DNA of 64,000 nt from an uncultured Holophagaceae bacterium (GTDB lineage: Bacteria > Acidobacteriota > Holophagae > Holophagales > Holophagaceae): assembly GCA_903863195.1 (NCBI GenBank), contig CAIPAY010000134.1, forward strand, positions 1-64,000, given 5' to 3'. Position 1 is the stretch's first letter. Each line of letters begins with the position of its first letter. This document shows positions 56,965-63,437 of the stretch, in pieces. The notes below the pieces were generated by a model. That model was not told where the DNA came from, ran no database searches, and saw only the letters and a list, made by a program, of their open reading frames with translations. Both the position numbers and the translations under genes were made by a program.

Positions 56965-57753
56965 ATGGCTCACGTCATTCCCACGCTCCGCGATGGTTAT
57001 TCAGTCGATTTCTGGCGGACCCGGAACGAGGTCTCCCAGGTCTGCGCCATCTGCTACGCCGAATCCCGGCCCGGGAAGTCGCGAAACCCGAAGGACCCGG
57101 TCTCCACCGAGGCCGATGGTGCTCTCCAGCCGGGTGGGGAGAACGCCCCCCGCCCCAAGCACTGCATCTCTCTGGCACCCGCCTGCGAAGCGGCCCGCAA
57201 CTGGAACCGGGAGGCCGGGGAGGACGGGCGGAGCCTGAAGATCTTCACCAACTCCATGGGGGAGTTCTGGGCCGATGACAGAGCATTGGACCAGGCTCGG
57301 CGGGTGGCCTTGGAGACCATGTACCAGACGCCCAACCTGGTCTGGATGCTGCTCACCCGCCAGCCCAAGGCCATCCCCACTCTGCTGCAGGCAACGATCG
57401 AGCTCGCCCGGTCTGAACCGAGTGCTGGTGGGGTGGGCTCGTTCGTCGAGTGGCTGGAGCGCTGGGTGGCAGGCGACCCCCCCCGAAACATCTGGATGGG
57501 AACCACCATCGAGGACCGGGCTGGAGCCCAGCAGCGGATCCTGGCGCTGCTCAAGGTTCCCGCTGCGGTGCGGTTCCTCGCCTGCGACCTCAGCTGCCCC
57601 AGGGCCCTGTTCGGAATCCCCGCCAACGGCACAGGCTCCAGCCTGGGCCAGACGTTCTACCCGTGGCTGGCGAACGGACCTACGGCAGAGGCCTTCCTGA
57701 AGGACATCCTGAACTACCTGAGCGTGAACCGGATGGGGGCGACGGGTTCCTAG
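56965..57753 (+). CDS. DUF5131 (phage Gp37/Gp68-like) protein
   Basis: A 262-residue protein. The family motifs are recognisable: C-containing VCAICYAES (usual CxxCYAE), [26 protein letters not shown], and [31 protein letters not shown]. The usual N-terminal opening with NPWTGC is replaced by [14 protein letters not shown], so the first Cys of the cluster is missing. The family is common on phages and mobile elements, but nothing else mobile is seen here. Its stop overlaps that of acnB. The ATG at 56965 was preferred to an upstream GTG. Confidence 0.72.
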
Positions 57754-60326
57754 ACCGTCACGGTATCGGCGACCTCACGGAAGTCAGGGATCTGGTCGAA
57801 GTTCATGTAGCGGTAGATGTCCTTGGACTTCTGGGCGATGACCCCGACGAGCTCCGCGTATTCGGCCACCGTCGGAATCTTCCCGAGCAGGGCGCAGATG
57901 GAGGCCAGCTCCGCGGAGCCGAGATAGACCCGGGTATCCAGGCCCAGCCGGTTGGGGAAGTTGCGCGTGGAAGTGGACATGGCCGTGCTGCCCTTGCGAA
58001 CCTGCGCCTGGTTGCCCATGCACAGGGAACAGCCGGGCATCTCCATGCGGGCGCCGGTGCGGCCCAGGATGCCGTAGTAGCCCTCCTGGGTGAGCACGTA
58101 GGCATCCATCTTGGTGGGCGGGGCGATCCAGAGGCGCGTGGCGAGGTCGGACTTGCCGTCCAGCAGCTTCCCGGCGGCCCGGAAGTGGCCGATGTTCGTC
58201 ATGCAGGAGCCGATGAAGACCTCGTCGATCTTGTCGCCAGCCACGGTGGAGAGCAGCTTGACGTCATCGGGATCGTTGGGGCAGGCCACGATGGGTTCCT
58301 TCACGTCGGCTAGGTTGATCTCGATGACCGCCGCGTAGTCGGCGTCAGCATCCGGGGCCAGCAGCTCGGGGTTGGCAATCCAGGCTCGCATGGCCTTGAT
58401 GCGGTTCTCCAGGGTCTCCCGGTGCTCGTAGCCATTCGCAATCATCCACTTCATGAGCGTGATGTTGGACGTCATGTATTCGATGATCGGTTCCTTGTCC
58501 AGGTGCACGGTGCAGCCCGCGGCGGACCGCTCGGCCGAGGCGTCAGAGAGCTCGAAGGCCTGCTCCACCTTGAGCTTGGGGAGCCCTTCGATCTCCAGGA
58601 TCCGGCCGCTGAAGAGGTTCTTCTTGCCCTTCTTCTCGACGGTGAGCAGGCCCTGCTTGATCGCGTAGTAGGGGATCGCGTTCACGAGATCCCGCAGGGT
58701 GATGCCGGGCTGGAGGTCGCCCTTGAAGCGCACGAGCACGGACTCCGGCATGTCGAGGGGCATGACGCCAGTGGCGGCGGCGAAGGCCACCAGGCCCGAG
58801 CCCGCCGGGAAGGAGATGCCGATGGGGAAGCGGGTGTGCGAGTCGCCGCCGGTGCCCACGGTGTCCGGCAGCAGCAGGCGGTTCAGCCAGCTGTGGATGA
58901 CGCCGTCGCCGGGCTTCAGCGACACGCCACCCCGGTTGGTGATGAAGGGCGGCAGCTCCCGGTGGGTCTTTACGTCCACGGGCTTCGGATAGGGTGCGGT
59001 GTGGCAGAAGGACTGCATGACCATGTCCGCGGAGAACTGCAGGCAGGCGAGGTCCTTCAGCTCATCCCGGGTCATGGGGCCCGTGGTGTCCTGGGAACCC
59101 ACGGTGGTCATGCGGGGCTCGCAGTAGGTGCCGGGACGGATGCCCTTCACGCCACAGGCCTTGCCCACCATCTTCTGGGCCAGGGAGAAGCCCTTCCCGG
59201 TGTCCGTGGGGATCGCGGGGAAGCGGAAGATCGTGGACTCGGGCAGGCCGAGGGCCTGGCGGGCCTTGGCCGTGAGGCCCCGGCCGACGATCAGGGGGAT
59301 GCGGCCGCCAGCGCGGACTTCGTCGAAGATGACCTCGGACTTGACTTTGAACTCCGAGATGACCTGGCCGTTCTTTAGGGCCTTGCCCTCATAGGGGCGC
59401 AGCTCGATGACGTCGCCCATGTCCATGCTGTTCACGTCCAGCTCGATGGGCAGGGCGCCGGCATCCTCCATGGTGTTGTAGAAGATGGGCGCGATCTTGG
59501 AGCCCAGGCAGACACCACCGAAGCGCTTGTTGGGCACGAAGGGGATGTCCTCGCCGGTGAACCACAGCACTGAGTTGGTGGCGGACTTGCGGGACGAGCC
59601 GGTGCCGACCACGTCCCCCACATAAGCGATCAGGTGGCCCTTGGCCCTCAGGGCGTCGAGCTGCTTGATGGGACCCACCTTGCCCGCGTCGTCGGGCTCG
59701 ATGCCGGGCCGGGCGTTCTTCAGCATGGCCAGGGCGTGGAGCGGGATGTCGGGGCGGCTCCACGCGTCCGGGGCCGGGGACAGGTCGTCGGTGTTGGTCT
59801 CGCCCGTGACCTTGAACACGGTCAGGGTCAGGCTCTGGGGCACCTCGGGGCGGCTGGTGAACCACTCGGCCTCGGCCCAGGACAGGAGGACGGCCTTGGC
59901 GTTGGCGTTGCCGGCATCGGCCTTGGCCTTCACCTCGGCGAAGGCGTCGAAGACCAGCAGGGTCTTCTTGAGGCCCTCGGCTGCGATGGCGCCCACCTTG
60001 GCATTGTCCAGCAGATCGATGAGAGGCTTCACGTTGAAGCCGCCCAGCATGGTGCCGAGGAGCTCTGTGGCCTTCTCGGGAGAGACCAGGGCCACCTTCT
60101 CCTGGCCCTTGGCGATGCTGGCCAGGAAGGCCGCCTTCACCCGGGCGGCATCATCTACGCCGGCGGGGACGCGGTGGGTCAGCAGGTCGAGCAGGACCTT
60201 CTCCTCGCCCGCGGGGGGATTGGCGAGCAGGGCGGCCAGTCCGGAGGTTTGGGCTTCCGTGAGCGGCAGGGGCGGAATGCCCATGGCGGCGCGTTCAGCG
60301 ACATGGAGGCGGTAGGCTTCGAGCAC
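57750..60326 (-). CDS. acnB: Aconitate hydratase B
   Basis: An 858-residue iron-sulphur enzyme of the TCA cycle that interconverts citrate and isocitrate. The [4Fe-4S] ligands are the Cys in [11 protein letters not shown] and the CxxC in [11 protein letters not shown]. The N-terminal HEAT-like domain begins [16 protein letters not shown], which matches E. coli AcnB. The start is a GTG at 60326 with AGGGGAG upstream; the frame extends to 60383 without family similarity. It is convergent with the DUF5131 gene and divergent from the HD-GYP gene. Confidence 0.95.
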
Positions 60327-60531
60327 GGTCAACTCCCCTGAGAGCGCCGCTGGGCGCGGTACGAACCCCCATTCTACATCCACCCCCCTCCCGGGGTGCC
60401 AGATGCTCTGCGGGGTCCTCCCCCCCCCTTCGGGGAGGCCCAGAGGCCGCCGCCGAATCTGGACAAGCCTGGTCCGCTTTCAACCTCGGGTCCTTCCGGG
60501 CCGATTCAGAGGCAGGCGGTGGACTAGGGTC

Positions 60532-60627
60532 ATGGTGATCAAGCGGGTGCGGGTCGAGGATCTCAGGACGGGGATGTACATCCACGACCTGAACTGCGGC
60601 TGGCTCCAGCACGGCTTCCTGCGGTAG
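60532..60627 (+). pseudogene. N-terminal part of the HD-GYP gene, ended by an in-frame TAG
   Basis: A 31-codon frame starting MVIKRVRVEDLRTGMYIHDL and ending at TAG (60625-60627). It is the beginning of a DUF3391 domain, which in HD-GYP proteins continues with WLxHPFLRxRFxI. The frame after the stop continues in register with RFMLNHPGQIQKMRDQGM. No base insertion or deletion is needed to join the halves; one codon is a stop. A GGGT precedes the ATG. Confidence 0.8.
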
Positions 60628-60633
60628 CGCTTC

Positions 60634-61734
60634 ATGCTCAACCACCCGGGCCAGATCCAGAAGATGCGGGACCAGGGCATGCATGAGCTCTACATCGACA
60701 CCGAGCGTGGGGACGATGTGGCCGGGGCCCCGACCAAGGCCGAGATTGACCTGGTGCTTGACCAGCAGCTGAAGCAGTCGGCCGCGGCCGGCGCTGCTTT
60801 GCCCACGGCCCGCGTCTCCCAGCAGCAGGAGTCCGTTCAGGCCAAGCGGATCCTGGGTGAGGCCTCAGTCATGGTCGACGGACTGCTCCAGGACGTTCGC
60901 CTGGGCAAGCAGGTGGACCCTGCCAAGGCCGGACCCCTGGTGAAGGAGATCAACGCCTCGGTGCTCCGCAATCCCGGGGCCCTGCTCAGCCTCTGTCGCA
61001 TCAAGGAGGCGGACACCTATACCTTCCAGCACAGTGTTAGCATCTGTGCACTGCTGGTCTCGTTCACGAACGCGCTGGGCATGCCTGCGGACCTGGTTCA
61101 TGAAGCGGGCCTCGGCGGGCTGCTCCATGACATTGGGAAAATGAAGATCCCGAACGAGATCCTGAACAAGCCCGGGAAGCTCACGGAAGCGGAATTCACC
61201 ATCATGAAGTCCCATGCTGCCATCAGTCGGGACCTGCTCTCGGGTGTGCCCGGGATCTCCGACATGGTCATTCGGGTCGCGGGTGAGCATCACGAGCGCA
61301 TGGGCGGCGGGGGCTATCCCGCGGGCATTCCCGGGGAGGGCATCTCCCAGATCGGGCGCATGGCGGCCATCGTCGATGTCTACGACGCGTTGACCTCCAA
61401 CCGGGTCTACCACAAGGGGATGGAGCCTTCCGAGGTGCTGAAGAAGCTGCTGGAGTGGAGCGGCGCTCACCTAGACGGCGACCTGGTTCAGCAGTTCATC
61501 CGCACCCTGGGCATCTACCCCGTGGGCGCGCTGGTCCGCCTCACGAGCGGGCGCCTGGCGGTGGTCGTCGAGCAGAGCGAGGATCTCCTGCGCCCCACGG
61601 TGCGCCTGGTGTTCGACACCAAGCTGGGCCTGGCGCTGCCCGTGCGGGACCTGCACCTGCTCCACGCTGCTGAGGAAATTGAGGACTACGAGGAGCCCGA
61701 GGACTGGGGCCTGGATCCGCTGGTGTTTCTTTAA
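60634..61734 (+). CDS. HD-GYP c-di-GMP phosphodiesterase (body of interrupted gene)
   Basis: A 366-residue frame holding the rest of the DUF3391 domain (about 1-45) and a full HD-GYP domain (about 120-290). Metal and catalytic residues: HSVSICALL, LGGLLHDIGKMKIPNEIL, EHHERMGGGGYPAGI (the HD and GYP motifs) and DVYDALTSNRVYHKG. It would degrade c-di-GMP. Translation could begin at the ATG at 60634, eight bases after the TAG, but no ribosome-binding site precedes it. Reinitiation, readthrough or a recent inactivating mutation are all possible. Its stop overlaps the ggt stop. Confidence 0.88.
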   Translation: MLNHPGQIQKMRDQGMHELYIDTERGDDVAGAPTKAEIDLVLDQQLKQSAAAGAALPTARVSQQQESVQAKRILGEASVMVDGLLQDVRLGKQVDPAKAGPLVKEINASVLRNPGALLSLCRIKEADTYTFQHSVSICALLVSFTNALGMPADLVHEAGLGGLLHDIGKMKIPNEILNKPGKLTEAEFTIMKSHAAISRDLLSGVPGISDMVIRVAGEHHERMGGGGYPAGIPGEGISQIGRMAAIVDVYDALTSNRVYHKGMEPSEVLKKLLEWSGAHLDGDLVQQFIRTLGIYPVGALVRLTSGRLAVVVEQSEDLLRPTVRLVFDTKLGLALPVRDLHLLHAAEEIEDYEEPEDWGLDPLVFL

Positions 61735-63437
61735 TACCCCGCGGCCTGGCCATCCTTGCGTGATTCCGAGGCCCCGAAGAACACCTTCTGCCTGGGATCC
61801 CAGCGGATGGCCTGGTAGCCGCCGTAGCCCCCGAGCAGCCAGGCCACGCCGTGCCCCCGGTTCATGAGCTCCCGGACGGTCTCATAGGGGAACCCGCTCT
61901 CCAGCTGGATGGTGCCCGGCAGCTTCCCCTTCTCGCCCGTGGGCTCCGGTGAGCCGTCATGGCTCATGCGCGGGGCGTCCCCGGCCTCCTGGGCGTTCAT
62001 GGCGAAATCGACCATGTTCATGACGATCTGGGCGTGGCCGATGGGCTGGAACTCGCCGCCCATGACGCCGTAGCTTAGGAACGGCTCGCCACCCTTGGTG
62101 ATGAACCCAGGGATGATGGTGTGGAAGGGGCGCTTGCCCGGGGCATAGGTGTTGGCGTTGCCTTCTTCGAGGTTGAACAGCTCACCCCGGTCCTGGAGGC
62201 AGAAGCCCAGGTCGCCCGGGGTCATGCCGCTGCCCATGCCCCGGTAGTTGCTCTGGATCAGGCTCACCATGTTGCCGTCGCCATCCGCGGTCGTGAGGTA
62301 GATGGTGTCGCCCTCCTTCAGGGGCGGGTGGCCCGCCTCGAGGCGGCGGGCGGCGCGGCCCTCGTCAAGGAGGGCGCGGCGCTGGGCGGCGTAGTCCTTG
62401 GAGAGCAGCCAGCCCAGGGGCACCTTCATGAAGGCGGCGTCTGCGTAGAACCTGGCCCGGTCCTCGAAGGCCAGCTTCTTGGCCTCGGTGAACAGGTGGA
62501 CGTGCCGGGGGCTTCCGAAGGGGATCTTCGTGAAGTCGTAGCCCTCGAGGATGTTCAGCATCTGCAGGGCCGCGATGCCCTGGCCGTTGGGGGGCAGCTC
62601 CCAGACATCGTAGCCCCGGTAGCTCACGGAGACCGGCTCCACCCAGTCCGAGTGGTGGGCGGCGAAGTCCTCATAGCTCAGGAACCCGCCCTGGGCCTTC
62701 ATGTAGGCGTCGATCTTGCGAGCGACCTCGCCCTTGTAGAAGGCGTCGCGCCCCTCCTTGGCCAGGAACTCCAGGGTGCGGGCCAGGCGGGGGTTGCGGA
62801 AGACCTCCCCGCTGCGGGGGGCCCGCTTGCCATCCACCGTGAAGGTCTCCAGGAAGCCCGGGAAGCGGCCCAGGGCGGGCACGCTGCGGTCCCAGTAGTA
62901 GGCGACCAGCTCCGAGACGGGGAAGCCCTCCCGGGCGTAGCGGATGGCCGGGGCCAGCACCTGCGCCATGGGGAGCCTGCCGAACTTGCGGTGCAGCTCG
63001 AACCAGGCGTCCACACAGCCGGGCACGCTGACGGGCAGGGGACCCTGGGGCGGGATGTGCTTGAGGCCGAGCTTCCGGAAGTGCTCAAGGCTGAGGCTCT
63101 TCGGCGAGCGGCCGCTGCCGTTCAGGCCGTGGAGCTTCTTCCCCTTGGCGTCCCAGACCATGGCGTAGAGGTCGCCGCCCATGCCGCTCCCTGTGGGCTC
63201 CATGAGGCCCAGGGCCGCGTCCGCGGCGATGGCCGCATCCACGGCGGAACCCCCCTGCTTGAGGATGTCCAGGGCGATCTGGGTGACCAGGGCCTGGCTG
63301 GTGCAGGCCATGCCGTGCTGGGCCGCCACTTCAGAGCGGGTGGCGAAGGCCCGGCCGGTGACGCGGTCGCCCGCCCCGAGGGACTGGCAGGCCGCGAGCC
63401 CGAGGGCCAGCGCGAGAAGAATCCGGGTGGTGGGCAT
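61731..63437 (-). CDS. ggt: Gamma-glutamyltransferase (lipoprotein)
   Basis: A 568-residue N-terminal nucleophile hydrolase that cleaves gamma-glutamyl bonds of glutathione and similar peptides. The signal peptide MPTTRILLALALGLAACQSLG has the lipobox LAAC, so it is probably a lipoprotein. The self-cleavage site is in GDTIYLTTADGDGNMVS, with Thr as new N-terminus. Other motifs: QGGSAVDAAIAADAALGL, and GSGMTPGDLGF in the small subunit. It follows the metalloprotease gene by 39 bases on the same strand, suggesting an operon. Confidence 0.93.
   Translation of the reverse strand: MPTTRILLALALGLAACQSLGAGDRVTGRAFATRSEVAAQHGMACTSQALVTQIALDILKQGGSAVDAAIAADAALGLMEPTGSGMGGDLYAMVWDAKGKKLHGLNGSGRSPKSLSLEHFRKLGLKHIPPQGPLPVSVPGCVDAWFELHRKFGRLPMAQVLAPAIRYAREGFPVSELVAYYWDRSVPALGRFPGFLETFTVDGKRAPRSGEVFRNPRLARTLEFLAKEGRDAFYKGEVARKIDAYMKAQGGFLSYEDFAAHHSDWVEPVSVSYRGYDVWELPPNGQGIAALQMLNILEGYDFTKIPFGSPRHVHLFTEAKKLAFEDRARFYADAAFMKVPLGWLLSKDYAAQRRALLDEGRAARRLEAGHPPLKEGDTIYLTTADGDGNMVSLIQSNYRGMGSGMTPGDLGFCLQDRGELFNLEEGNANTYAPGKRPFHTIIPGFITKGGEPFLSYGVMGGEFQPIGHAQIVMNMVDFAMNAQEAGDAPRMSHDGSPEPTGEKGKLPGTIQLESGFPYETVRELMNRGHGVAWLLGGYGGYQAIRWDPRQKVFFGASESRKDGQAAGY

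Follow-up and report, generated by a model that had tools for sequence, protein, structure and literature searches.

Proteins joining a DUF3391 domain (PF11871) to an HD-GYP domain form a family with orthologues of about 63–95% identity in Geothrix/Holophagaceae and of about 50% in Chromobacterium, Thiocystis, and others. In V. cholerae, deletions of single HD-GYP genes left motility and biofilm formation unchanged, and none of the assays used detected activity of VC2497, a protein with DUF3391 (PMC4212101). Two further systems are close to a gene of this family with a premature stop, namely the young nonsense pseudogenes of bacteria and termination-reinitiation (translational coupling), which operates across very short distances between stop and start in E. 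coli and Haloferax and fades by about 14–40 nt (PMC10666635). A search of the literature on stop codons in metagenome-assembled genomes and on nonsense reinitiation yielded nothing directly usable. The gene described here, located in a window of 64,000 nt (the whole stretch of DNA that was analyzed), revealed the domain order and the invariant residues of the DUF3391 plus HD-GYP family, but unlike that family it carries one TAG inside DUF3391. It resembles young nonsense pseudogenes in its one lesion, the sense codon found in its close relatives (26/26), the lack of decay, and the redundancy of the genome, while differing from them in that its stop is read from a draft consensus. With termination-reinitiation it shares the short distance from stop to start, though a poor ribosome site, an unconserved start, and the lack of a second cistron selected for restart set it apart. 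Our main reading, to which we assign a probability of about 0.6, is a young nonsense allele of a chromosomal DUF3391–HD-GYP gene whose full enzyme would be lost.

Translation of the gene revealed a single internal stop at codon 32 ahead of the closing TAA (61732–61734), and no second lesion was found in the frame 60532–61731. Coding sequence lies on both sides of the TAG, since Pfam places DUF3391 at residues 3–132, across the stop, and the catalytic domain HD_5 at residues 162–318. Both matches exceeded their cut-offs, DUF3391 with 99.1 bits (E 3.9e-28) when the stop was read as X, and HD_5 at the protein level with 105.7 bits against a curated value of 27.2 (E 3e-30); searching the entire genome in six frames recovered the same DUF3391 match with one TAG inside. 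Thus, the initial annotation, made from the letters alone, was right in placing an in-frame amber codon within DUF3391 and in letting the HD-GYP frame run on behind it. Orthologues in the codon alignment share the start codon found at 60532.

The initial annotation had also regarded the catalytic residues as intact, which seems to hold for the HD-GYP metal-site positions (H167, H199, D200, K203, H228, H253, H254, and D282), all invariant across 39 homologues, but less so for the signature at 61288–61320 (residues 253–263), which reads HHERMGGGGYP instead of the textbook HHExxDGxGYP, with GYP kept and D replaced by G. This replacement is common to most orthologues of the Geothrix group, while most other homologues have HHExxDGxGYP, and it is therefore unlikely to be damage of the window's copy. 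The metal-binding set of the domain thus looks kept, and hydrolysis of cyclic di-GMP is predicted.

For comparison of codon 32, 60 related genomes were used, which provided 26 orthologues for a codon-by-codon alignment. All 26 had a sense codon in this column, namely 17 CAG, one CAA, five proline codons (three CCC, one CCT, one CCG), and three serine codons (two TCG, one AGC). Among the four closest species (about 90% nucleotide identity), CAG was found in L003, L004, and L005 and CAA in L034, the latter taken from a second collection. The proposal that a single change such as CAG to TAG explains the stop was thereby borne out. When 110 loci were scanned in translation, a set that contains some genes more than once and relatives as distant as about 34% identity, the stop was detected solely in the window's copy (0 of the 109 others). 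An intact codon in related strains had been named at the outset as the finding that would reduce the stop to an error or a strain mutation, and an intact codon in related genomes is what the alignment revealed. The features of the locus are listed in Table 1.

Table 1. Coordinates of the interrupted gene, its parts, and its neighbours in the window
Feature	Position	Strand	Remarks
Interrupted gene, putative DUF3391 + HD-GYP cyclic-di-GMP phosphodiesterase	60532..61734	+	400 codons plus TAA
DUF3391 domain, stop inside	60538..60927	+	PF11871, 102.3 bits from DNA, one TAG within
In-frame TAG, codon 32	60625..60627	+	all 26 orthologues of the alignment have a sense codon here, CAG in most
ATG, possible restart (M35), 6 nt past the TAG	60634..60636	+	Leu codon in L003, L004, and L034; ATG in L005
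HD-GYP (HD_5) catalytic domain, frame intact	61015..61485	+	PF13487, 107.9 bits
acnB, aconitase B, divergent upstream neighbour, intact	57750..60383	-	TIGR00117, 1491 bits
Gamma-glutamyltransferase gene, convergent downstream neighbour, 4-nt overlap	61731..63437	-	TIGR00066, 366.6 bits

With an outgroup and the four closest relatives as references, six nonsynonymous and 19 synonymous changes proved to be unique to the window's copy, and the corresponding numbers in intact sister genes were 8/21 for L005 and 3/16 for L034. Pairwise Ka/Ks values between the window's copy and three sisters ranged from 0.07 to 0.09, compared to 0.03–0.11 for the intact genes among themselves. If constraint had been lost over the whole branch, roughly 60 nonsynonymous changes per 19 synonymous ones would be expected, as estimated from the numbers of sites; judged by these counts, the gene was under constraint for about 85–90% of its terminal branch or more. 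Apart from the stop, the gene has not decayed, and therefore the stop is very recent, absent from the DNA of the cells, or bypassed. An undecayed remainder would be no less expected with an erroneous stop or with a product that is still made.

The stop is thus most likely either a very recent loss of function by one letter or an error of the draft genome, and not a new control device. Of the four options put forward in the initial annotation, recent loss of function and sequencing error survive, whereas readthrough is unsupported and reinitiation weak. Under the favoured nonsense allele, one recent C-to-T transition would have turned a glutamine codon into TAG, and ribosomes starting at 60532 would stop after 31 residues, so that the full enzyme would be absent or made in traces via leaky decoding or a weak restart at 60634. 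The allele would be young, perhaps a variant at the level of strains, and would be tolerated owing to the other HD-GYP proteins and the EAL protein of the genome and given that the gene is missing from many congeners. The stop, the sense codon in the relatives, the lack of further decay, and the redundancy are observations, and from them we infer that the cells truly carry this base and that the enzyme output is lost. With regard to redundancy, profile searches of the genome resulted in eight HD_5, eight GGDEF, and one EAL match, and 11 of 36 genomes of the same genus, several of them 95–99% complete, had no full-length match or orthologue. Loss of the window's DUF3391–HD-GYP gene should be tolerable. 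Beyond this genome its meaning is slight: the case cleanly illustrates a very young, single nonsense codon in a conserved gene, and demonstrates that comparing codons with those of sister species allows a stop in a draft genome to be dated.

In the genomes devoid of an orthologue (G001, G005–G008, G011, G015, G018, G021, G025, and G026), the best match covered the HD-GYP domain only, with E values of about 1e-24 to 1e-28. Content of DUF3391–HD-GYP genes is patchy within the genus.

Possible, though clearly less probable than a real mutation, is an error of consensus or binning or a mixture of strains, in which case the cells would have a sense codon and the T would be an artefact of the draft assembly. 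The genome of 3.6 Mb, which belongs to the Geothrix/Holophagaceae group (Acidobacteriota) and lies closest, among named records, to metagenome-assembled genomes of Holophagaceae/Geothrix, is a draft in 267 contigs with a completeness of 93%, and a lone substitution in a gene that is well preserved elsewhere and intact in all relatives would fit such an error. Against this, substitution errors are rare in deep short-read consensus sequences, and comparison of the 112.7-kb contig with a sister species revealed, among its 84 coding ORFs, no clear frameshift and no clear nonsense codon within a conserved domain except that of the HD-GYP gene. A coding filter was applied to the compared ORFs, as long antisense ORFs, frequent in this G+C-rich DNA, had distorted the unfiltered set. 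The remaining flagged stops lie in probable N-terminal over-extensions or antisense frames, and an apparent truncation at contig position 95341 was discounted, its frame being antisense-looking and of low complexity. A generally error-rich contig was not seen in this comparison. The genome of sister species G023 is largely collinear with the window at about 90–95% identity.

Reinitiation at the ATG at 60634, which would yield an enzyme with a shortened sensor that is still active and perhaps deregulated, is doubtful. It is allowed by the gap of only 6 nt, a spacing for which restart has been measured in other species (PMC10666635), and by the intact and constrained frame downstream, but Shine-Dalgarno pairing to the 16S tail ahead of this ATG is weak (-3.0 kcal/mol, compared to a background median of -3.7 and to -6.6 for the normal start), and three of the four closest species have a leucine codon instead. 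Moreover, the product would be devoid of strands 3–7 and 16–19 and of the invariant residues G14, M15, W24, and F29. An AlphaFold2 model of the frame with the stop read through (mean pLDDT 89) places these two strands within residues 1–34, along with the loop that bears the invariant W24 and F29, so the DUF3391 domain of a restart product would probably be damaged. The suggestion that translation may resume at this ATG is thus feasible in principle but handicapped by a poor ribosome site, an unconserved start, and the lost residues. Should restart still supply a product, this would offer a natural test of the effect of DUF3391 on an HD-GYP enzyme. Less probable still is a gain of function by one base, in which a first ORF of 31 codons followed by restart at 60634 would release a sensor-less, constitutive HD-GYP enzyme from control by DUF3391.

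Programmed or tolerated readthrough of UAG as a control step, with the complete enzyme as its product, is highly improbable. The site itself might allow it, as column 32 tolerates Gln, Pro, and Ser in the orthologues and codon 32 lies in a loop adjoining the stretch of lowest confidence (residues 25–29) in the AlphaFold2 model, so that insertion of an amino acid at this position would probably be tolerated. In addition, the genome harbors a tRNA-Gln(CTG), and such a tRNA could misread UAG at a low rate. Against conserved control, no relative carries TAG at codon 32 (0/26 orthologues, 0/109 other loci); a conserved regulatory stop was rejected on these grounds, a sense codon being present in every orthologue and other locus scanned. 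The search for a UAG suppressor tRNA, proposed at the outset as a check, revealed no CTA anticodon among the 43 tRNAs of the 93% complete genome (ARAGORN run on every tRNA match), while release factor 1 is present (488.7 bits). With overlapping ORFs retained in the count, TAG closes more of the conserved ORFs of the 112.7-kb contig than either other stop codon, and 73 of 77 conserved ORFs ending in TAG end within five residues of the end of the sister ORF; they stop where the sister ORFs stop, and therefore TAG works as a stop in this genome. Stop-codon readthrough as a control step, raised in the initial annotation, is thus not supported, the stop occurring in no other species and being unmatched by a UAG-reading tRNA. 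Reassignment of UAG to an amino acid, for which a single conserved frame interrupted by TAG could be cited, was rejected as next to impossible, given that TAG terminates conserved ORFs at matched ends, release factor 1 is encoded, and a cognate tRNA was not found in the 93% complete genome.

Around the HD-GYP gene, no consensus promoter or terminator was found. The region 60379–60450, between acnB and the start of the HD-GYP gene, contains C- and G-rich tracts able to pair, but revealed no T-run, and no terminator was called. A search of the genome for c-di-GMP-I riboswitches gave no match, which carries no weight as it was run without a positive control.

A split orthologue was observed at locus L098 (positions 1244–2658, Holophagaceae MAG UBA706), whose N-terminal part up to the HD motif is in frame 2 and whose second piece is in frame 1. 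The second piece begins like a different HD-GYP domain (NDEIVFSLVHAVEAKDTYTRGHSERV), and the split is possibly an assembly chimera or the result of recombination between HD-GYP genes. Adjoining pairs of DUF3391–HD-GYP genes were also detected, arranged in tandem in L070, L088, L092, and L097 and on opposite strands in L062, L064, and L066; their hosts are Holophagales, Neomarinimicrobiota, Nitrospira, and purple sulphur bacteria.
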